From Sulfurimonas sp. (lineage in GTDB: Bacteria; Campylobacterota; Campylobacteria; Campylobacterales; Sulfurimonadaceae): 58,941 nucleotides of DNA. The notes under the pieces were generated by a model. That model ran no database searches. It saw nothing but the letters and a program-made list of their open reading frames with translations, and was not told the origin of the DNA. The stretch spans positions 1-58,941 of the forward strand of contig JAQTWZ010000008.1 in assembly GCA_028689055.1 (NCBI GenBank), written 5' to 3'. The translations under genes were made by a program, and so were the position numbers. This document shows positions 39,173 to 49,185 of the stretch, piece after piece; positions within the stretch are counted from its first letter, which is position 1; each line of letters starts with the position of its first letter.

Positions 39173-39730
39173 CTATTTTGCCAAAGCTTCTTTAGCGTAT
39201 TTTTCGCCAAGTTCATAAGCTTTTAAATTTGCAGCATGAACTTTTGCCGGTACTTTTGAGAGCATAGTATCTACTAGTACTTGTCTATCGATTGCGTTTT
39301 GCATTGTATTTGCAATTGCAAGTGCAACAACAGACTGAGTAATAACATTACCAACCTCTTCTTTTGCGATAGTAATAATAGGAATCTCATGGATTTTCCA
39401 TGTTTTTCTATCTTCATCTGTTGGATGTACAAGATTTGGATCAACAACGATTGTTCCACCTGGTGTTACACCACTTTTAAAAGAGTTGTAACTTACTTGT
39501 GCAACAGAAAGCATAAAATCAATCTCACCATCATTTGCATACGGATAGAAGATTTCTTCATCATCCAATGTAATATCAACAACAGTTGGCCCACCACGAA
39601 CTTGCGATGTATATGTAGCAGTTTTTAGACCTTCTCCGCCACTTTTAATTTTTGCAGCTGCAAAAATTTCACCAGCAAGAAGAACACCTTGACCACCAAC
39701 ACCGGTAAATCTCATTAAGTTTCTAGCCAT
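39173..39730 (-). CDS. oorC: 2-oxoglutarate:ferredoxin oxidoreductase, gamma subunit
   Basis: 185 residues, gamma-domain fold of 2-oxoacid:acceptor oxidoreductases: RFTGVGGQGVLLAGEIFAAA at the start and GGPTVVDITLDDEEIFYP. With OorA, OorB and OorD it forms the four-subunit enzyme that links succinyl-CoA, CO2 and reduced ferredoxin to 2-oxoglutarate; in autotrophic Campylobacterota it runs in the reductive direction. Last gene of the operon, before the terminator at 39138-39166. Confidence 0.94.
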   Translation of the reverse strand: MARNLMRFTGVGGQGVLLAGEIFAAAKIKSGGEGLKTATYTSQVRGGPTVVDITLDDEEIFYPYANDGEIDFMLSVAQVSYNSFKSGVTPGGTIVVDPNLVHPTDEDRKTWKIHEIPIITIAKEEVGNVITQSVVALAIANTMQNAIDRQVLVDTMLSKVPAKVHAANLKAYELGEKYAKEALAK

Positions 39731-39739
39731 TATGTCCCC

Positions 39740-40597
39740 TTATATTTTTTTAGCAAAGTCATCTTGAGAAATTGTTTTTCTCTGACCTTGGTGTACTTTG
39801 ATGATCTCAGCATACATATCACAATACTCATCTGCTTCTGTATCTTCTTTTAAAATACCTGTAGGAAGTAAGTTGATGCGTTCTTCCGGAGTCATAGCAT
39901 CGTATTTTTTCTTAGGTGTAGTAATACTATCAATCCACTCAAGATTTTCCATAGCCGAAGCCATTTTATTTTTTCTACCAAGGTTGATGTGGCAGTTTGA
40001 AAGGATATCAAGACACGCAAAACCTCTGTGTTCTAACGCTTTTACAAAAACTTTTTCAAGTTTTTTAGGATCAAGCATTGATTCGCGAGCAACAAAAGAA
40101 GCTCCTGCAGCAATAGCTAAATTACAAGTATCAAATGTTGGATCGATATTACCGGCTTTTTGAGAAACTGTCCACATACCTTTTGGTGTAGTTGGAGAAG
40201 TTTGAGAGTTTGTTAAACCATAAATAAAGTTGTTGATGATAATCATCGTAATATCTATGTTTCTTCTACAACCATGAATAGTGTGGTTACCACCGATTGC
40301 AAGTGCATCACCATCGCCTGCTACACAAATAACATATTTGTCTGGGTGGACAAGTTTAATACCTGTTGCAAATGCAACTGTACGACCGTGTGTTGTGTGT
40401 ACTGTATTGAAATCAACATATGATGAAAATCTTCCTGAACAACCAATTCCAGAAACTACACATACATTATCTCTATCGATTCCTAGCTTGTCGATAGCTC
40501 TAACAAAAGCCTTAAGGATAACACCATCACCACAACCCCAACACCATAGTGTTGGCATTTTTTCTAATCTTAAATATTTATCGTAATTAAATGCCAT
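39740..40597 (-). CDS. oorB: 2-oxoglutarate:ferredoxin oxidoreductase, beta subunit
   Basis: 285 residues. Thiamine-diphosphate-binding subunit: CVAGDGDALAIGGNHTIHGC with Mg-binding Asp and Asn, then NIDITMIIINNFIYGLT. The N-terminal CWGCGDG Cys motif and a later Cys (SNCHINLGRKN region) fit the [4Fe-4S] ligands of the KGOR/OOR beta family. One base from oorA; 9 bases before oorC. Confidence 0.95.
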   Translation of the reverse strand: MAFNYDKYLRLEKMPTLWCWGCGDGVILKAFVRAIDKLGIDRDNVCVVSGIGCSGRFSSYVDFNTVHTTHGRTVAFATGIKLVHPDKYVICVAGDGDALAIGGNHTIHGCRRNIDITMIIINNFIYGLTNSQTSPTTPKGMWTVSQKAGNIDPTFDTCNLAIAAGASFVARESMLDPKKLEKVFVKALEHRGFACLDILSNCHINLGRKNKMASAMENLEWIDSITTPKKKYDAMTPEERINLLPTGILKEDTEADEYCDMYAEIIKVHQGQRKTISQDDFAKKI

Positions 40598-40598
40598 T

Positions 40599-41732
40599 TT
40601 ATAGCTCCTTTACTTTATTTACAATCTCATAAGGAGATATTGGTCTGCCGTTTACTTTAAACAAACCATCTATATCAAGTCTTCCAGTTGAACGTTGTAC
40701 TTCATCTCTGTATTGACCGATATTTAGTTCAACTACTAAGACTTTAGGGATTTTAGCACCAAGTTCTCTCATTCTATCTTGTGGACTTGGCCATAAAGTA
40801 ATCGGTCTAAACAAGCCGGCTTTGATACCTTCAGCTCTTAAGTGACGGATGGCTTCTTTTGCTGCAAGTGATACAGAACCGTATGCAATAATCAAAATCT
40901 CAGCATCATCCACAAAAAATTCTTCATTTAATTCGATTTCATCTTTATGTAGTTCAACTTTGTCTTCAAGACGTTGAATGAGTTTACGACAAGTTTCAAT
41001 CTCTTCAGTTGGAAACCCTTTTGCATCATGGTGTAGTCCAGTAAAATGGTATCTATATCCTTTAAACATCGGGTTAAGAACTGCAGGTTGGTCATGTTCA
41101 CACGCATAAGGACGGTAATCTTCTGGTGCTCCATCGAAAGATTTACGAGGAACAATACCGTTAGCAACTTCTTCTTCTGTAGGAAGCATCGCTTTTCCGT
41201 GCATGTGACCTATCGTCTCATCCAAAAGAACAAATACAGGTTGCATAAATCTATCAGCAAGATTAAACGCTCTTACTGTTTCTGTGTAACACTCAGCTAA
41301 AGAGCCTGCGCATAAGGTGATTGATTTGTAGTCACCATGAGATGGGTTTTTTGCTTGAGCAACGTCACCTTGAGATACACGAGTAGGAAGACCTGTTGAT
41401 GGACCGCCACGCATAACGTTTACAACTACTAAAGGAACTTCAGCCATTTGAGCTAAGCCAAGATTTTCCGCTTTAAGTGAAATACCAGGACCTGAAGTAG
41501 CAGTCATTGTTCTAACACCTGCCATTCCGGCACCGATAGCTGCAGCAACACCGGCAATTTCATCTTCCATCTGAATACATGTACCACCAACTTCTGGCAT
41601 TAAGTCAGACATTTCGTGCATTACTTCACTTGACGGCGTGATAGGATATCCGCCGAAAAATCTACATCCTGCATCTCTTGCAGCTAATGCTGATAATTCA
41701 TTACCAGTTGAAATTACTTCTCTTGTCGCCAT
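40599..41732 (-). CDS. oorA: 2-oxoglutarate:ferredoxin oxidoreductase, alpha subunit
   Basis: 377 residues, covering the pyrimidine-binding domain and the transketolase C-terminal-like domain. It starts with STGNELSALAARDAGCRFFG, then GYPITPSSEVMHEM, EDEIAGVAAAIGAGMAGVRT and TATSGPGISLKAENLGLAQM. These are hallmark blocks of KorA/OorA proteins. Its ATG overlaps the oorD stop (TAATG). Confidence 0.95.
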   Translation of the reverse strand: MATREVISTGNELSALAARDAGCRFFGGYPITPSSEVMHEMSDLMPEVGGTCIQMEDEIAGVAAAIGAGMAGVRTMTATSGPGISLKAENLGLAQMAEVPLVVVNVMRGGPSTGLPTRVSQGDVAQAKNPSHGDYKSITLCAGSLAECYTETVRAFNLADRFMQPVFVLLDETIGHMHGKAMLPTEEEVANGIVPRKSFDGAPEDYRPYACEHDQPAVLNPMFKGYRYHFTGLHHDAKGFPTEEIETCRKLIQRLEDKVELHKDEIELNEEFFVDDAEILIIAYGSVSLAAKEAIRHLRAEGIKAGLFRPITLWPSPQDRMRELGAKIPKVLVVELNIGQYRDEVQRSTGRLDIDGLFKVNGRPISPYEIVNKVKEL

Positions 41733-42067
41733 TATTTAACTCCTTGTAAATCAAGTGACATATAGTTATTCGCTTTAATTGCCACTTGACGTGCTTTAGC
41801 TTCATCTGTTAATTTAGCAAATTTATAATCTTTCTTATCTGCTACATAAATAGCAAAATCAGGACATGAAAGCTCACACTCATTACATCCAATACACGAT
41901 TCTGGATGATCTATTGAAATCATTGCACCTAGTGTAGATGTATGATCATACTTCATTCCAAGCACACCAGACGGACATACAGACACACATATATCACACG
42001 CTTTACAGTTACTAGTATTTACCCAAACAGGTGCATTGTTTACGTTTTCAGTCATTGCAGTTCCCAT
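41732..42067 (-). CDS. oorD: 2-oxoglutarate:ferredoxin oxidoreductase, delta (ferredoxin) subunit
   Basis: 111 residues with two [4Fe-4S] motifs: CKACDICVSVCPSGVLGMKY and CIGCNECELSCPDFAIYV. It relays electrons between ferredoxin and the OorAB core. The start at 42067 has AGGAG five bases upstream, inside the end of the HMA gene; ATG 42055 is an alternative. Order D-A-B-C as in C. jejuni and H. pylori. Confidence 0.94.
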   Translation of the reverse strand: MGTAMTENVNNAPVWVNTSNCKACDICVSVCPSGVLGMKYDHTSTLGAMISIDHPESCIGCNECELSCPDFAIYVADKKDYKFAKLTDEAKARQVAIKANNYMSLDLQGVK

Positions 42068-42394
42068 TTACTCTCCTATTTTATTATTTGCAGATTCATC
42101 CGCATTATCATTGATACTAAATTTTCCGATAGCACACGAAACAAAACTTTTAGCTTTGAGGCCAATTGTATTTCCGAAGCTATTTTCCTCGTCACAAAGA
42201 GGATAACCTAATTTTCTTAAAATAGGTCCAAGTTGTGCTAATGACGCCTCATTTTTCGCATTTACTGTTACTTTGCGAGGCTCGCACGAGAGGTCAACTA
42301 TTACATCTTCAAAACCCTCTTTTTCAAGAGTTTTTATGATTGTATTTGCGCAGCCCGAACATCGGACATTGTTGACTTCAACTGTACTTAGCAT
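42068..42394 (-). CDS. Heavy-metal-associated (HMA) domain protein inside the reductive-TCA operon
   Basis: 108 residues. The first 70 form a CopZ/Atx1-like ferredoxin fold, with VRCSGCANTIIKTLEKEGFE carrying the metal pair Cys12/Cys15 and a partner loop near LRKLGYPLCDE. A tail (about 75-108) with one more Cys (KAKSFVSCAIGKFS) has no known match. The ATG directly follows the sucD TAG, and its TAA directly precedes the oorD ATG, so it is translated in chain with them. It may supply or remove metal for the Fe-S enzyme OOR; this is inference. Confidence 0.85.
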   Translation of the reverse strand: MLSTVEVNNVRCSGCANTIIKTLEKEGFEDVIVDLSCEPRKVTVNAKNEASLAQLGPILRKLGYPLCDEENSFGNTIGLKAKSFVSCAIGKFSINDNADESANNKIGE

Positions 42395-43270
42395 CTATTT
42401 TTTGGCTAGAACTTCAGCGATAGCTTTTCCGATTTCAGCAGGAGAAACTACAACTCTAACACCAGCTGCAGTAAGTGCTGCCATTTTTTCAGCTGCAGTT
42501 CCTGCACCACCAGAGACGATTGCTCCAGCATGACCCATACGTTTTCCAGCAGGTGCTGTTTGACCGGCAATAAACGCAACCACAGGCTTTGTGATATGTT
42601 CTTTGATATATGCCGCTGCTTGAATCTCAAGGTCTCCGCCGATTTCACCAATCATTACGATTGCTTCAGTCTCTGGATCTGCTTCAAACATTGGAAGAAG
42701 TTGTTTGTATGAAAGACCGATAATCGGATCTCCGCCAATACCAACGGCCGTTGTAATACCAAAACCCTCTTTACATACTTGGTTCGCACCTTCATATGTC
42801 AATGTACCAGACTTCGATATAAGACCAACATTACCTTTTTTGAAAATCATACCAGGCATGATACCGATTTTGCACTCTTCAGCGGTGATAATTCCCGGAC
42901 AGTTTGGCCCGATTGTCATCATTCCGTGTTTTACAGCAAATGCTTTAGCCGCTTGCATATCGCGAACAGGAGCACCTTCAGTAATGATAACGGCAAGTTC
43001 GATACCTGCATCGGCAGCTTCCATAACTGCATCAGCAACAAACGCAGGTGGAACAAAAATCATTGATACTGTAGCACCGGTTTGTGCAACCGCTTCTCTT
43101 ACAGTGTTAAATACAGGTTGACCTAAATGCTCAGTACCGCCCTTGTTTGGTGTAACCCCACCTACAATTTTTGTACCATATGCCATACATTGTTCTGCGT
43201 GAAAAGAACCCTCTTTTCCTGTAAAACCTTGAACGATAACTTTTGTGTCTTTGTTAACTAAAATACTCAT
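42395..43270 (-). CDS. sucD: Succinyl-CoA synthetase, alpha subunit
   Basis: 291 residues. CoA-binding Rossmann N-domain ([20 protein letters not shown]) and the phospho-histidine loop [18 protein letters not shown] in the C-domain. With SucC it interconverts succinate + CoA + ATP and succinyl-CoA; in the reductive cycle it makes succinyl-CoA for OOR. Five bases after sucC. Confidence 0.96.
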
Positions 43271-43275
43271 ATAAA

Positions 43276-44445
43276 TTATTCTCCTTTCGCTGCGCGCACT
43301 GCTTTTGCTGCGCCATCTGCTAAATCTGATGCGACAATTACATTTGCAATATTTGCATTTTTAAGAATTTCTGCTGCTTCGGGTGCGTTTGTACCATCAA
43401 GTCTTACGATAACCGGAACATGGACATCCACAAGTTTTGTAGCTTCAAGGATACCGTTCGCGATACGGTCACATCTAACGATACCACCAAAAATATTTAC
43501 AAAGATTGCTTTTACATTTGGATTTTTAAGAATAATTTGGAAACCTTTTGCAACTGTTTCTGCGTTTGCAGAACCACCAACATCAAGGAAATTTGCAGGT
43601 GTTCCACCCATATAGTTAATCGTATCCATAGTACCCATTGCAAGACCGGCACCGTTTACCATACAACCGATTTCGCCATCAAGAGAGATATAAGAAAGAC
43701 CATAACGGCTTGCCTCACGCTCATCTGCGTCTTCTTCAGAAATATCACGCATATCTTCGATCTCTGGATGACGTCCAAGTGCTGAATCATCAAAACTCAT
43801 CTTGCCATCAAGTGCCAAAAAGTCACCGCTTCCAGTTTTGATAAGAGGATTGATTTCTATCATCTCTGCATCGTTTTCCATATAAACTTTATAAAGTGCC
43901 GCAGCAAATTTTATAAATTTACCCTGCTCTTCTTTTGCAAGACCAAGACCAAACGCAAGTTCACGTCCGTGAAATGCTTGAAAACCGATAGCAGGATCAA
44001 CAGCTACTTTGATGATTTTTTCAGGAGTATTATGCGCAACATCTTCGATTGCCATACCACCTTCAGTAGAAGCCATGATAACCGGCATCTCTTTAGCACG
44101 ATCAAGAACTACGCCCAAATAAAGCTCATCTTTAATATCAGCGCCCTCTTCTATATATACTTTTTGTACGAGTTTACCCTCAGGTCCTGTTTGGTGTGTT
44201 ACCAAAGTCATACCTAAAATTTCAGAAGCAAGTGTTTTTACTTCATCTAATGAACGAGCAAGTTTAACACCGCCACCAAGTCCACGGCCTCCAGCATGTA
44301 TTTGTGCTTTGACAACCCAAACTTTTCCACCCAACTCTTGCGCATTTGTCATCGCTTGAGAAGGCGTGTTAGCTATAATTCCTCTTGGTGTCGGAACACC
44401 ATACTTAGCAAAAATTTGCTTTGCCTGATACTCATGTATATTCAT
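43276..44445 (-). CDS. sucC: Succinyl-CoA synthetase, beta subunit
   Basis: 389 residues. ATP-grasp N-terminal region ([40 protein letters not shown]) and a C-terminal ligase domain ([19 protein letters not shown]). Standard length. A hairpin separates it from fumC (44472-44490), otherwise the genes are contiguous. Confidence 0.96.
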
Positions 44446-44516: not shown

Positions 44517-45911
44517 TTAAGCCTTTGGCGCAATCATCTCTTCTGGTTTAACATATTCATCAAATTGTTCTGCAGTTAAAAGTCCCAGTTCGATTGCCGT
44601 TGCTTTTAATGTAGAGTTATTTTTGTGTGCCGTTTTTGCTATTTTTGCTGCGTTTTCATACCCGATATATGGATTTAACGCAGTAACAAGCATCAATGAA
44701 TCATGTAAATAATGATCTATTTTTGCTTCTACAGGCATAATTCCAACAGCTGCGTTATCGTTAAATGAAATGATAGAATCAGCTAAAAGTCTTGCTGATT
44801 GCAAAAAATTATAAGCGATGACAGGCTTGAATACATTGAGTTCAAAGTTACCTTGAGAAGCTGCAAAACCGATAGTTGCATCATTACCCATAACCTGACA
44901 TGCGACCATAGTTACAGCTTCACTTTGTGTAGGATTAACTTTCCCTGGCATAATAGAAGAACCCGGCTCATTTTCAGGAATCGTAATCTCACCAAGACCA
45001 CATCTTGGACCTGATGCTAACCAACGAACATCGTTTGCTATTTTCATCATATCTGCAGCAAGAGCTTTGAGTGCACCATGAGCAAATACTAAGGCATCAT
45101 GAGACGTTAAAGCATGAAACTTATTTGGAGCAGTGATAAAATCATGTCCTGTAAGTTCTGAGAGTTTTTTTGCAACTCTTTCACCTAATTCAGGATGTGC
45201 ATTGAGACCTGTTCCAACTGCAGTACCGCCAAGTGCAAGTTCACGTACCGCTTCTAAAGATAAAGCTGCCATTCTCTCAGATTTGTTCAGCATCTCTACC
45301 CAACCGCTGATCTCTTGACCCAAAGTCAAAGGTGTAGCATCTTGTAAGTGCGTACGACCAATTTTTACGATATGATCAAAAGCTTCACTTTTTGCTTGAA
45401 GGGTTGCTTTTAGCTTGGCAATTGCTGGTAAAAGTTGCTCTTCTACAGCGATTACGGCAGCAACATGGAGTGCTGTAGGATAAGTGTCATTTGAACTTTG
45501 TGATTTATTTACATCGTCATTCGGATGTACTATCTTTTCAACGCGGAAATCTCCGCCAAGAATCTCTGTAGCACGGTTTGCGAGTACTTCATTGTTGTTC
45601 ATATTTGACTGTGTGCCCGAACCTGTCTGCCACACAACTAAAGGGTAACTTCCATCAAGTTTGCCGGCAAGCATATCATCGGCAGCTTGTGCAATTGCAT
45701 CTGCTTTTCTTGCATCAAGTTTTCCAAGATCTTTATTGACTAAAGCAACTGCTTTTTTTAAGTAAGAAAAAGCACGAGTAATCTCATAAGGCATCTTCTC
45801 TTCACCAATTTTAAAGTTCTCAATTGAACGCTGCGTTTGTGCACCCCAATAAGCATCAAGTGGAACTTCGATTGAACCCATTGTGTCTTTTTCTAAACGA
45901 ATAGTAGCCAT
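44517..45911 (-). CDS. fumC: Fumarate hydratase, class II
   Basis: 464 residues. The aspartase/fumarase signature [17 protein letters not shown] is near residue 315; [10 protein letters not shown]-type substrate motif ([20 protein letters not shown]) is near residue 97 and [16 protein letters not shown] near residue 185. Interconverts malate and fumarate without an Fe-S cluster. Its ATG overlaps the mdh stop. C. jejuni does not carry fumC in this cluster, as I recall, so its placement fits an autotrophic operon. Confidence 0.96.
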
Positions 45912-46867
45912 TAGTTGTCTCCAAAGAAATTATTTTTATTTAAAGTATCGATAAGTGTTTGCACTGAATTACATGAGTTTGCAAACATCTCTTTTTCTGC
46001 ATCATCAAGAGTAACTTCGATGATTTTTTCCGCTCCATTTGCTCCTAACATAACAGGAACACCTGAGACGACATTATCATGACCATACTCACCTTCAAGA
46101 AAAACAGCACAAGGATGGATCTGTTTTGTGTCTTTTAGGATAGCCTCAACCATGATTGCAGCTGATTTTGCAGGTGCATAATATGCAGATCCTGTTTTGA
46201 GGTATCCTACGATTTCAGCACCGCCGTGACGGGTACGTACAACGATTTCGTCTATCTCTTCTTTTGTTAACACATCAGAGAGCGGCACGCCTGCAACTGT
46301 AGAGTAGCGAGGAAGTGGAACCATATCGTCACCATGACCACCCATAACCGAAGCACGAATCTGTCCACCACCGTAGCCAAGTTTTTCTTGTATAAACGCA
46401 GCCATTCTTGAGCTATCCAATATACCGGCCATACCGATAACACGGCTTCGCTCAAATCCACTCTCTCTAAGTGCAACATATGTCATTGCATCAAGAGGAT
46501 TTGAAACCATAATGATAATAGCTTCCGGAGAGTATTTTGCTATACCTTTGATAACATCTTTTGTGATATTTGCATTTATCATAAGAAGATCATCACGGCT
46601 CATGCCTGGAAGTCGTGGACTTCCTGCCGTTACAACAACTACATCACAGTTTGTCAAATCAGATATATCTTCAGCAACGGTAACCACTGTATGACTTCGT
46701 ACAGCGGAAGCTGCTTGAGACATGTCAAGTGCCTTTCCTTTTGCTACGTCAATTTTATTGTCACGAAGAATAATTTCATGGCAAGAACCGAGCATTGCCA
46801 AAGAATAAGCTACCGTAGCACCAACGTTGCCGGCACCGACTATCCCTACTCTCTTTCCTTGTTTCAT
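45911..46867 (-). CDS. mdh: Malate dehydrogenase (LDH-like type)
   Basis: 318 residues. NAD-binding [18 protein letters not shown] at the N-terminus, catalytic His in [14 protein letters not shown], and Asp/Arg partner in [15 protein letters not shown]. The sequence is of the lactate-dehydrogenase-like MDH family. ATG 46867 after AAGGGG is preferred over in-frame 46906. It heads the mdh-fumC-sucC-sucD-HMA-oorDABC run; a long palindrome and the icd terminator lie upstream. Confidence 0.95.
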
Positions 46868-46940
46868 ATAAGCCCCTTGATATTTAGTATTTGATATTTT
46901 AAACATAGATACTTAAAATTCATCCAAAGACTTTCGCCTT

Positions 46941-46970
46941 TTATATAAATCATTTAAATGATTCATATAA
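46941..46970. repeat. 30-base near-perfect palindrome upstream of mdh
   Basis: TTATATAAATCATTT (46941-46955) and AAATGATTCATATAA (46956-46970): fifteen-base arms with one mismatched pair and no loop; the inner 16 bases AATCATTTAAATGATT are perfect. It lies between the icd terminator and the mdh ATG, where a promoter for the mdh-oor run would be. Candidate dimeric regulator site. Confidence 0.55.
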
Positions 46971-46980
46971 AAAGAGAAAA

Positions 46981-47007
46981 TTTAGAGAGACAGAAGGTCT
47001 CTCTAAA
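46981..47007 (-). terminator. Intrinsic terminator of icd
   Basis: TTTAGAGAGAC (46981-46991), loop AGAAG, GTCTCTCTAAA (46997-47007): a perfect 11-pair stem, followed on the reverse strand by a U-rich TTTTCTCTTTTT. It sits 4 bases after the icd stop and separates icd from mdh. Confidence 0.8.
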
Positions 47008-47010
47008 GAT

Positions 47011-49185
47011 TTAGATATTGTTTATGATGTTATTTAAAGTCGCAGATGGTCTCATCGCAGCTTCAGCTTTTGCATCATTTGGATGGTAATAACCACCGAT
47101 ATCTTGTGCTTTACCTTCAACAGCTAGTAGCTCCTCAATGATTTTAGCTTCATTTTCTTTGAGTTCTTTCGCTATAGGAGCAAATTTAGCAGCTAACTCT
47201 GCGTTTTCACCTTTTGCAAGTGCTTCTGCCCAGAACTGAGCTACGAAGAAGTGAGATGCTTTGTTATCCGGCTCACCACATTTACGTGATGGTTCTTTGT
47301 TGTTATCAAGGTATGCGTCATTTGCAACGTCTAGCGCGGCAGTTAATGCAGCAATTTTTGCGTCGTTATTTTTTTGACCGATAAATCTCAAAGACTCAGC
47401 AAGTGCTAAAAACTCACCAAGTGAATCCCATCTTAAGTGACCTTCAGCTAAAAATTGATCAACGTGTTTTGGAGCAGATCCGCCTGCACCCGTTTCATAC
47501 AAACCGCCACCAGCTAATAATGGCACGATTGAGAGCATTTTTGCAGATGTTCCAAGCTCTAAGATTGGGTACATATCTGTTAAATAATCACGTAAAACAT
47601 TACCGGTTACAGAGATAGTATCTTCACCTTTTCTTACTCTTGCGTTTGTATATCTTGTAGCCGCTGCAATGTCCATAATCTGAATATCAAGTCCAGATGT
47701 ATCATGATCTTTCAAATATGTATTTACTTTGTTTATCATTTGTGCATCATGAGCTCTGTTTGCATCTAACCAAAAAATAGCCGGAGAACCTGTAAGACGA
47801 GCACGTTCTACTGCAAGTCTAACCCAGTCTTTGATTGGGATATCTTTAACTCTTGACATTCTCCAGATATCACCTGCTTCTACATCGTGGCTCATGAGAA
47901 CATTTCCAGATGCGTCTTTTACTTCAACTTTTCCAGCCTCAGCAATTTCAAATGTCGTAGGGTGAGAACCGTACTCTTCAGCTTTTTGTGCCATAAGACC
48001 AACATTCGCAACGTTCCCCATTGTAGTAACGTCGTACTGACCATTTTTAACACAATCAGCTACCATCTCTTCATAAAACATTCCATAAGTGCTATCAGGA
48101 ATTACAGAAACACACTCGCATGCATCACCGTTTCTATTCCATTGTTTACCACCCTCTCTTACCACGACCGGCATAGAAGCATCGATGATTACATCATTTG
48201 AAGCGTTGAAGTTTGTTGTTCCTTTATCAGAATCGACCATTGCGATTTGAGGAGCATCAGAGTCAACAACAGCTTTAAACGCAGCCTTGATTTCAGCTTC
48301 TTTCGCGTGACCTTTGATTTTTTTGTCGATATCAGAAATACCAAGATTTGGGTTTACTTTTAATTCTTTGAATTCTGCTGCATATTTAGCAAATACAGGT
48401 GCAAAGAAGACTTCAAGAGCATGACCGAACATAATAGGGTCAGAGATTTTCATCATCGTAGCTTTAAGGTGGATAGACCATAAAACGCCATTTGTTTTTG
48501 CATCATCAATCGTTTTTTGGATGAATGCTCTGAGTGCTTTAACAGACATAAAAGTACCATCTAAGATCTCTTTTTCTACTGCGTTTATAGTGGCAAGTTC
48601 TTTACCGTTGATAGTAATAGTAACTTTTTGTCCTTTATCTACAACTACAGATTGCTCATTTCCGTAAAAATCGCCTTTTCCTTCCATGTGAGCAACATAT
48701 GCTTTAGAGTTTTCAGAGTATGCTCTAAGTTTATGAGGATTTTTTTGTGCGAACTTTTTAACAGCTGCAGCAGCACGTCTGTCTGAGTTCCCTTCACGAA
48801 GAACAGGATTTACAGCAGAACCAAGACAAACATTGTATTTTGCTCTGATTGCTTCTTCTTCTGCGTTTGCAGGATTTTCAGGAAAGTTTGGAATATCATA
48901 ACCTTGCCCTTGAAGTTCAGCAATACAATCTTTAAGTTGACCAACAGAAGCAGATACATTTGGAAGTTTGATAATGTTTGCATCTTCTTGCATAACAACT
49001 TCACCTAGTTTTGACAATTCGTCTTGTGCTAAACCCATCGCAGCTAAAACTCTACCCGCAAGTGAAATATCGCTAGTGACCACTTCTACGCCTGCCGCTT
49101 TTGTGAAAGCATTAACTATAGGTAACAGTGAGTAAGTTGCTAAAGCCGGTGCTTCATCAATTTTTGACCAAATAATTTTTGACAT
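47011..49185 (-). CDS. icd: Isocitrate dehydrogenase, monomeric, NADP-type
   Basis: 724 residues, the length and sequence type of the monomeric enzyme (SKIIWSKIDEAPALATYSLL; VVREGGKQWNRNGDACECVS; FWLDANRAHDAQMINKVNTY). Converts 2-oxoglutarate + CO2 to isocitrate in the reductive cycle, or the reverse. It has its own promoter region with a leader hairpin (49216-49238) and own terminator, so it can be regulated apart from mdh-oor. GAGGAC precedes the ATG. Confidence 0.96.
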   Translation of the reverse strand: MSKIIWSKIDEAPALATYSLLPIVNAFTKAAGVEVVTSDISLAGRVLAAMGLAQDELSKLGEVVMQEDANIIKLPNVSASVGQLKDCIAELQGQGYDIPNFPENPANAEEEAIRAKYNVCLGSAVNPVLREGNSDRRAAAAVKKFAQKNPHKLRAYSENSKAYVAHMEGKGDFYGNEQSVVVDKGQKVTITINGKELATINAVEKEILDGTFMSVKALRAFIQKTIDDAKTNGVLWSIHLKATMMKISDPIMFGHALEVFFAPVFAKYAAEFKELKVNPNLGISDIDKKIKGHAKEAEIKAAFKAVVDSDAPQIAMVDSDKGTTNFNASNDVIIDASMPVVVREGGKQWNRNGDACECVSVIPDSTYGMFYEEMVADCVKNGQYDVTTMGNVANVGLMAQKAEEYGSHPTTFEIAEAGKVEVKDASGNVLMSHDVEAGDIWRMSRVKDIPIKDWVRLAVERARLTGSPAIFWLDANRAHDAQMINKVNTYLKDHDTSGLDIQIMDIAAATRYTNARVRKGEDTISVTGNVLRDYLTDMYPILELGTSAKMLSIVPLLAGGGLYETGAGGSAPKHVDQFLAEGHLRWDSLGEFLALAESLRFIGQKNNDAKIAALTAALDVANDAYLDNNKEPSRKCGEPDNKASHFFVAQFWAEALAKGENAELAAKFAPIAKELKENEAKIIEELLAVEGKAQDIGGYYHPNDAKAEAAMRPSATLNNIINNI

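Follow-up and report, generated by a model that had tools for sequence, protein, structure and literature searches.

Copper chaperones, regulatory RNAs and the oor operon

Copper chaperones of the CopZ/Atx1 type (PF00403) are cytosolic proteins of about 65-72 residues with no extension beyond the HMA fold, in which an MxCxxC motif occupies the first loop and a Tyr the GY loop. In C. jejuni and R. capsulatus, copZ mutants have lower cbb3 activity, and CopZ supports the assembly of the cbb3 oxidase (PMC8267372, PMC8475189). Structured cis-regulatory RNAs near TCA genes are small conserved hairpins with covarying stems that keep a constant position ahead of an enzyme operon, and coding sequences that double as regulatory sequences are constrained at synonymous sites by their second function. 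In the vent and sediment bacteria considered here, 2-oxoglutarate:acceptor oxidoreductase (OOR) is one of the points at which the reductive TCA cycle fixes CO2.

In the Sulfurimonas sp. contig JAQTWZ010000008.1, the whole 58,941 nucleotides of which were analyzed and are referred to as the window, the genes for succinyl-CoA synthetase (SCS) and OOR are separated by an ORF, hma. Its product resembles CopZ/Atx1 proteins in its HMA fold, its first-loop CxxC, the Tyr of its GY loop and its cytosolic nature, and its relatives also occur in copper-resistance neighbourhoods. Unlike CopZ/Atx1 proteins, Hma has Val or Ile in place of the motif Met (N-[VI]-[RK]-C-x-G-C), carries an additional tail of about 30 residues with an invariant SC, and in the window is encoded in a TCA gene row. 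The ORF overlaps an element that is constrained at the nucleotide level, occurs in single copy at a fixed position, is retained after the ORF is lost, and has covarying stems. With structured cis-regulatory RNAs near TCA genes this element shares the small covarying hairpin and the constant position ahead of an enzyme operon, but it has no Rfam match, lies inside an ORF in part of the Sulfurimonadaceae and persists after loss of that ORF. The synonymous-site constraint on hma is likewise that of overlapping dual-use sequence, with the difference that here the element repeatedly outlives its host gene. We favour, with moderate confidence, the reading that the junction holds a structured mRNA element acting in cis on oorDABC, with a copper-chaperone-like ORF lying across it.

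The sucD-oorD junction

The TCA row lies on the minus strand in the order monomeric idh, mdh, fumC, sucC, sucD, hma, oorD, oorA, oorB and oorC. The ORFs for fumC, mdh and monomeric isocitrate dehydrogenase span 44517-49185, and the idh homologue of one relative (L060) matches TIGR00178; sucC (43276-44445), encoding the succinyl-CoA synthetase beta subunit, was assigned as an ORF and by its position, the order being conserved in relatives. The alpha subunit gene sucD lies at 42395-43270 (NF004230, 440 bits), oorD for the OOR delta subunit at 41732-42067 (NF007205, 171 bits), oorA at 40599-41732 (NF007206, 667 bits), and oorB and oorC together at 39173-40597 (NF007207 and NF006275). A strong terminator-like hairpin (46981-47007, minus strand) is situated between mdh and the idh ORF upstream of it, so that the row from mdh to oorC is probably transcribed separately from idh.

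The original prediction of an HMA-type ORF between sucD and oorD holds: hma (42068-42394, minus strand) encodes 108 amino acids and abuts both genes, with its ATG directly 3′ of the sucD stop codon and its TAA directly 5′ of the oorD ATG (42067). The zero spacing, to which weight had been given, is true of this DNA, but what relatives share is only the gene order and a tight junction of sucD with hma (-4 to +11 nt, as in coupling), the distance from hma to oorD ranging from 0 to 42 nt. A ribosome-binding site of its own, AGGAG, is available to oorD; in the window it is the AGGAGAG at 42071-42077 (minus strand), within the 3′-end of hma, and AGGAG is found upstream of oorD among the relatives listed. 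All 30 relatives compared have their genes arranged as sucC-sucD-hma-oorD-oorA, contig ends excepted, and the dN/dS of hma is 0.13-0.21, so that the observation is more than a chance one.

A tailed HMA subfamily

Hma matches PF00403 at the cut-off (24.8 bits, E 2.9e-5), and the curated CopZ and CopP NCBIfam models score it far below theirs (13.9 bits for NF033795, whose cut-off is 91). The Cys12-Ser-Gly-Cys15 motif that had been noted in the protein was confirmed from the ORF translation, and further Cys residues are at positions 37, 67 and 87. In the AlphaFold2 model the HMA fold has high confidence as far as residue 66 or so and is followed by a low-confidence tail that is predicted to be disordered; the best Foldseek matches are CopZ, Atox1 and MerP, and sequence searches agree on the fold. 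An alignment of relatives displays the CxxC, an LGYP, and KSFVSCAxGK in the tail. The conserved C-terminal tail of the window protein (KAKSFVSCAIGK, residues 80-91, 42122-42157, minus strand) includes S83, S86 and C87, which are invariant in 129 sequences. Far from being unique to this protein, as had been supposed, the Cys-containing tail is conserved more strongly across the subfamily than any other segment, with a mean pairwise identity of 0.81 versus 0.52 for the HMA domain. That the most conserved segment is also predicted to be disordered suggests a docking motif, by which Hma probably binds a partner. When GTDB genomes were scanned with the tail peptide, 557 of the 589 stretches recovered came from relatives of Hma, and the tail is therefore nearly exclusive to these proteins. 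Judged by its sequence, Hma is a member of a tailed HMA subfamily, defined by the CxxC and the near-invariant KSFVSCAxGK, that is widespread in Campylobacterota. The subfamily would represent a testable new type of chaperone, with an unannotated motif common to Campylobacterota, Bacteroidota plasmids and phage contigs.

The occurrences outside chromosomes include a Riemerella anatipestifer plasmid (NZ_CP081938.1, L164:5974-6258), on which a tailed HMA gene (KKAKSFVSCAIGRM) adjoins genes for a TonB-dependent receptor and DUF6132; from its presence on Bacteroidota plasmids, the tail motif spans phyla. Tailed HMA proteins with KAKSFVSCAIG are also encoded on T4-like phage contigs (L165:4995-5267, IMGVR_UViG_3300006077_000024; L166:4977-5258; L167; L168), where the neighbours are a UvsW-type helicase, an SbcC-like endonuclease subunit and PhoH. 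The hma of the T4-like contigs is a phage-borne copper-chaperone-like gene; the named phages of the INPHARED collection gave no match.

Distribution of hma and the relationship to OOR

Hma was found in 114 of the 151 Sulfurimonadaceae genomes searched. An oorA match was present in 127 genomes of this family, of which 105 also have an hma match and 22 have no copy, and hma adjoins oorA in 71 of the 105 genomes that have both. In other families, identified here through the named loci with which they group, full-length hma is next to oorA in 10/10 cases in the family that groups with Nitratiruptor, 4/4 in that with Hydrogenimonas, 13/20 in that with Sulfurovum, and 3/3 and 1/1 in families f10 and f13. 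In the Arcobacteraceae (the family grouping with Arcobacter) only 1/24 copies is next to oorA, and the remaining 23 are elsewhere, mostly after mdh in an idh-mdh arrangement. Most genomes of the Helicobacter- and Campylobacter-type families (f2 and f3) have either no hma or an ordinary short CopZ-type HMA gene, while OorD is nearly universal in them. Other sites of hma are gatA-guaB, nuoA and yedF.

The association of Hma with SCS and OOR that was originally proposed thus stands in part: linkage to SCS/OOR genes is conserved in at least six families, and the protein has an HMA fold with a Cys-containing tail, but a role as subunit or obligatory factor does not agree with its distribution. The co-occurrence check on hma and oor went against such a role, the gene being absent or replaced by the short CopZ type in most f2 and f3 genomes and sited elsewhere in 23/24 Arcobacteraceae copies. 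Hma is not present wherever oorDABC is, and with 22/127 oorA-bearing Sulfurimonadaceae genomes lacking any copy, many more OOR genomes without hma, and relocated copies, the data do not support an OOR subunit. The broader form of the same proposal, that Hma is a dedicated OOR/TCA accessory protein acting in Fe-S protection, in assembly or as a loose subunit, draws on its conserved placement beside sucD/oorD across several families and beside mdh in Arcobacteraceae, and on the lability of the OOR Fe-S centres, for which other protectors are known, Campylobacter hemerythrins among them (PMC4257069). We consider it improbable, given that many genomes with OOR do without hma, that the gene relocates to gatA-guaB, nuoA, yedF and copper-resistance contexts, and that the sucD-hma-oorD adjacency is partly explained by the nucleotide element. 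No publication that describes an HMA gene within an oor operon came up in the literature search.

The copper context

The only HMA proteins of the window's own genome are Hma and one CcoI/FixI-type Cu ATPase. Neighbours of hma in relatives include cusA (TIGR00914), copB, genes for a multicopper oxidase and a Cu P-type ATPase, and two-component genes. The variety of TCA and copper contexts, together with the presence of only two HMA proteins, agrees with a chaperone for copper handling that is frequently, though not invariably, housed in TCA operons, and a copper-chaperone-like role, suggested by family and context, is the likeliest one for Hma, which would work in the cytosol as a copper chaperone or buffer. 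By analogy with CopZ, it might also support the cbb3 oxidase. None of the 15 genomes without PF12156 (that is, without CcoI) has a full-length hma, nine of the 15 being from one family. Tailed HMA and CopZ proteins do not strictly replace one another, as some Sulfurimonas genomes encode neither of the two, and the idea that their distributions are complementary was set aside.

From this context it could be argued that hma merely hitchhikes: a constitutively needed copper chaperone, feeding CcoI for example, would be kept in housekeeping operons for steady expression only. The housekeeping contexts do vary by lineage (sucD-oorD, mdh, gatA-guaB), the genome's complement of Hma plus a CcoI-type ATPase agrees with it, and so does the reduced cbb3 activity of the copZ mutants described above. 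This is a serious possibility to which we give somewhat less than an even chance, as some CcoI-bearing genomes lack hma altogether and steady expression leaves the retained nucleotide element unexplained.

Codon constraint within hma

The element extends over about 97 nt (42196-42293, minus strand), corresponding to hma codons ~33-66, and is matched by covariance model R1 with 69.2 bits and an E-value, rough as all those of this model are, of 6.0e-11; it is the only copy in its genome. Codon choice within it was assessed in 52 oor-linked hma genes of Sulfurimonadaceae. S36 is TCG in 43/43 (background 8%), A50 is GCG in 47/48 (12%), A53 is GCA in 50/50 (32%) and L59 is TTA in 47/52 (14%); R60 is AGA in 47/51, whereas R40 is CGN in nearly all. 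At V42-T43, which encode a conserved GUAACA in the apical part of the predicted hairpin (42266-42271, minus strand), GTA is used in 46/51 and ACA in 45-47/51 genes against backgrounds of 27% and 36%. Where two of these genes share an amino acid, they also share its codon with a probability of 0.68-0.79 over codons 35-65, versus 0.43-0.54 in the rest of the gene. Paralogues of hma at other sites and the mdh-linked copies do not have these codons frozen, and Cys37 and the SCEPRKVT/EASxA signature are typical of the oor-linked Sulfurimonadaceae copies. The frozen codons imply that Cys37 and the EASxA signature follow from the nucleotides, and a conserved protein motif such as Cys37 may thus not mean protein function, which calls for caution in the reading of motifs.

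The element in junctions without hma

Empty sites were defined as sucD-oorD junctions of Sulfurimonadaceae members in which hma is absent or elsewhere. These gaps are mostly 130-220 nt long and contain a conserved stretch that on inspection is homologous to hma codons 36-65, which in the window read TCG TGC GAG CCT CGC AAA GTA ACA ... GAG GCG TCA TTA GCA CAA ... TTA AGA AAA TTA GGT TAT CCT; a typical gap copy reads TTGTGCGAGCCTCATTAGGTAACA...GAGGCGTTATTAGCACAATT...TTAATTAAACTTAGTTAATCT. The element is present in 38/42 clean gaps without hma. The gap copies are non-coding, with a stop in the hma frame in 38/40, and the lengths between their blocks differ by non-multiples of three. A search with R1 yielded exactly one copy per genome in 120/151 Sulfurimonadaceae genomes, of which 117 lie no more than 2.2 kb from oorA and three at the end of a contig; among the 127 oorA-bearing genomes, 119 have the element and eight have no match. 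In a 220-genome sample of the phylum, strong R1 matches were seen in 17 of the 18 Sulfurimonadaceae genomes among those listed and only marginal ones in other families, which makes the element a feature of Sulfurimonadaceae. The element is kept when the ORF is lost or relocated, and its position is therefore probably of importance to the adjacent enzyme as well as to Hma.

A SucD+OorD tree shows at least 9 gains or losses of hma at this site on well-supported branches, and 14 by parsimony. Six broken or 5′-truncated hma genes still in place (G016, G007, G130, G026, G105 and G024) keep the element with 55-75 bits. In two of these genomes, G007 and G105, a further hma match is found elsewhere, and this second copy may have assumed the role of the protein while the element had to stay. 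The gap sequences could be viewed as decaying, functionless hma pseudogenes, being homologous to hma and in some cases recognisable as broken genes. We hold this to be very unlikely: the same codons are synonymously frozen in intact genes, the same stretch is kept through at least 9 independent gains or losses while its flanks decay, and the stems covary. The preferred reading, a structured mRNA element, provides a clear case of a regulatory element that is hosted inside a gene and survives the gene's repeated loss. A series of hma pseudogenes is seen at the sucD-oorD junctions of L244 (from G016) and L245-L249, among them two 5′ truncations with loss of the metal-binding CxxC.

Predicted RNA structure and possible mode of action

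The element is predicted to form a hairpin of two helices (P1, GUGY/RCAC; P2, GCYUC.../...GRRGC) with the GUAACA, followed by a 3′ box. In the window, P1 is formed by GUGC (42284-42287) and GCAC (42235-42238) and P2 by GCCUC (42277-42281) and GAGGC (42246-42250), all on the minus strand; the 3′ box, TTAAGAAAATTAGGTTATCCT (42200-42220, minus strand; codons L59-P65), has no other exact match in the window. RNAalifold recovers P1 (GUGY with RCAC) and P2 (GCYU with ARGC). P1 is paired in 98.7% of cells over 76 distinct rows, and P2 undergoes compensatory changes in gap copies, such as GCYUC/GRRGC and GCUUACC/GGUGAGC. The 38 gap copies have 43 double-change cells versus 20.3 +/- 3.3 in shuffles, which keep no account of relatedness, and a covariation score of 0.299 versus 0.187 +/- 0.015, again with relatedness not removed; the 76 distinct rows that include ORF copies have 60 double-change cells versus 22.7 +/- 3.2, with the same qualification. 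Sliding the stem partners by 1-3 columns destroys the covariation, and the mRNA strand has 70 G-U wobbles as opposed to 29 A/C mismatches. The window copy folds only moderately better than shuffles (z -1.3), although several gap copies reach z values of about -4 to -6.5; L244 is left out of these values. The element thus has a conserved secondary structure with covariation, as structured RNAs do, relatedness being incompletely controlled. No Rfam family matched the gap loci at E<=1, and in the window the matches stayed weak and below threshold, and were to families from eukaryotes and viruses. A column-coupling scan for a pseudoknot was left unused, as it was confounded by the split between coding and non-coding copies.

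The main rival, which we consider rather unlikely, is that the element acts in DNA, as an internal promoter or operator of oorDABC inside hma, with the 3′ box TTAnnAAAACTwrGnTAnnCT as a promoter-like part and GTAAC/GTTAC as an operator. The 3′ box is conserved both in the Sulfurimonadaceae gaps and, in a related form, in Sulfurovaceae gaps that lack the hairpin, so that a promoter, or a site in the DNA to which a protein binds, could account for some of the element; the box ends in TAnnCT, which is loosely similar to a -10 box, and V42 GTA, T43 ACA, L59 TTA and P65 CCT are also biased in the oor-linked hma genes of other families. Compensatory change in stems, loops of variable length and mRNA-strand wobbles are unlike an operator, however, no well-spaced -35 was found on inspection, and promoter-like scans of the region remained at chance level.

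For these reasons we infer action at the RNA level, with oorDABC as the probable target. The middle third of the hma ORF would double as a cis-acting element of the sucCD-oorDABC transcript, one that most likely sets oorDABC expression separately from sucCD and that may act through folding of the mRNA on processing, stability or elongation. The predicted folding did not show the 3′ box sequestering the ribosome-binding site of oorD, and none of the terminator-like sites listed for the mRNA strand of the window lies between the element and oorD. A more speculative and, in our view, rather unlikely extension is that an undescribed riboswitch-like RNA inside a metallochaperone ORF senses a metabolite, redox state or metal and controls 2-oxoglutarate oxidoreductase in sulfur-oxidising Campylobacterota, the Cys37/SCEPRKVT signature being a by-product of the RNA; the literature search found no report of a 2-oxoglutarate riboswitch in Campylobacterota. 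A single-copy element tied to the oor operon offers a direct handle on the regulation of carbon flow.

Related sequences and variation at the locus

Six Sulfurovaceae sucD-oorD gaps without hma (L225-L230, 228-281 nt) have in common a GGTAACA and a box TTAnnAAAAsTARGCTATnCT, and the occurrence of a related 3′ box with GGTAACA there indicates that part of the element may be older. They contain a further conserved stretch (TAGTGAATA...ATCTCAC), and their conserved stretches are possibly a separate regulatory element.

Within Sulfurimonadaceae, the identity of OorA to the window copy is bimodal, at about 63-68% or 78-99%. In one locus (L012), identity is 63% for oorA, 90% for sucD and 86% for oorD, so that oorA diverges while the rest of the operon is similar, and loci of this kind suggest in-place replacement of the OorA subunit.
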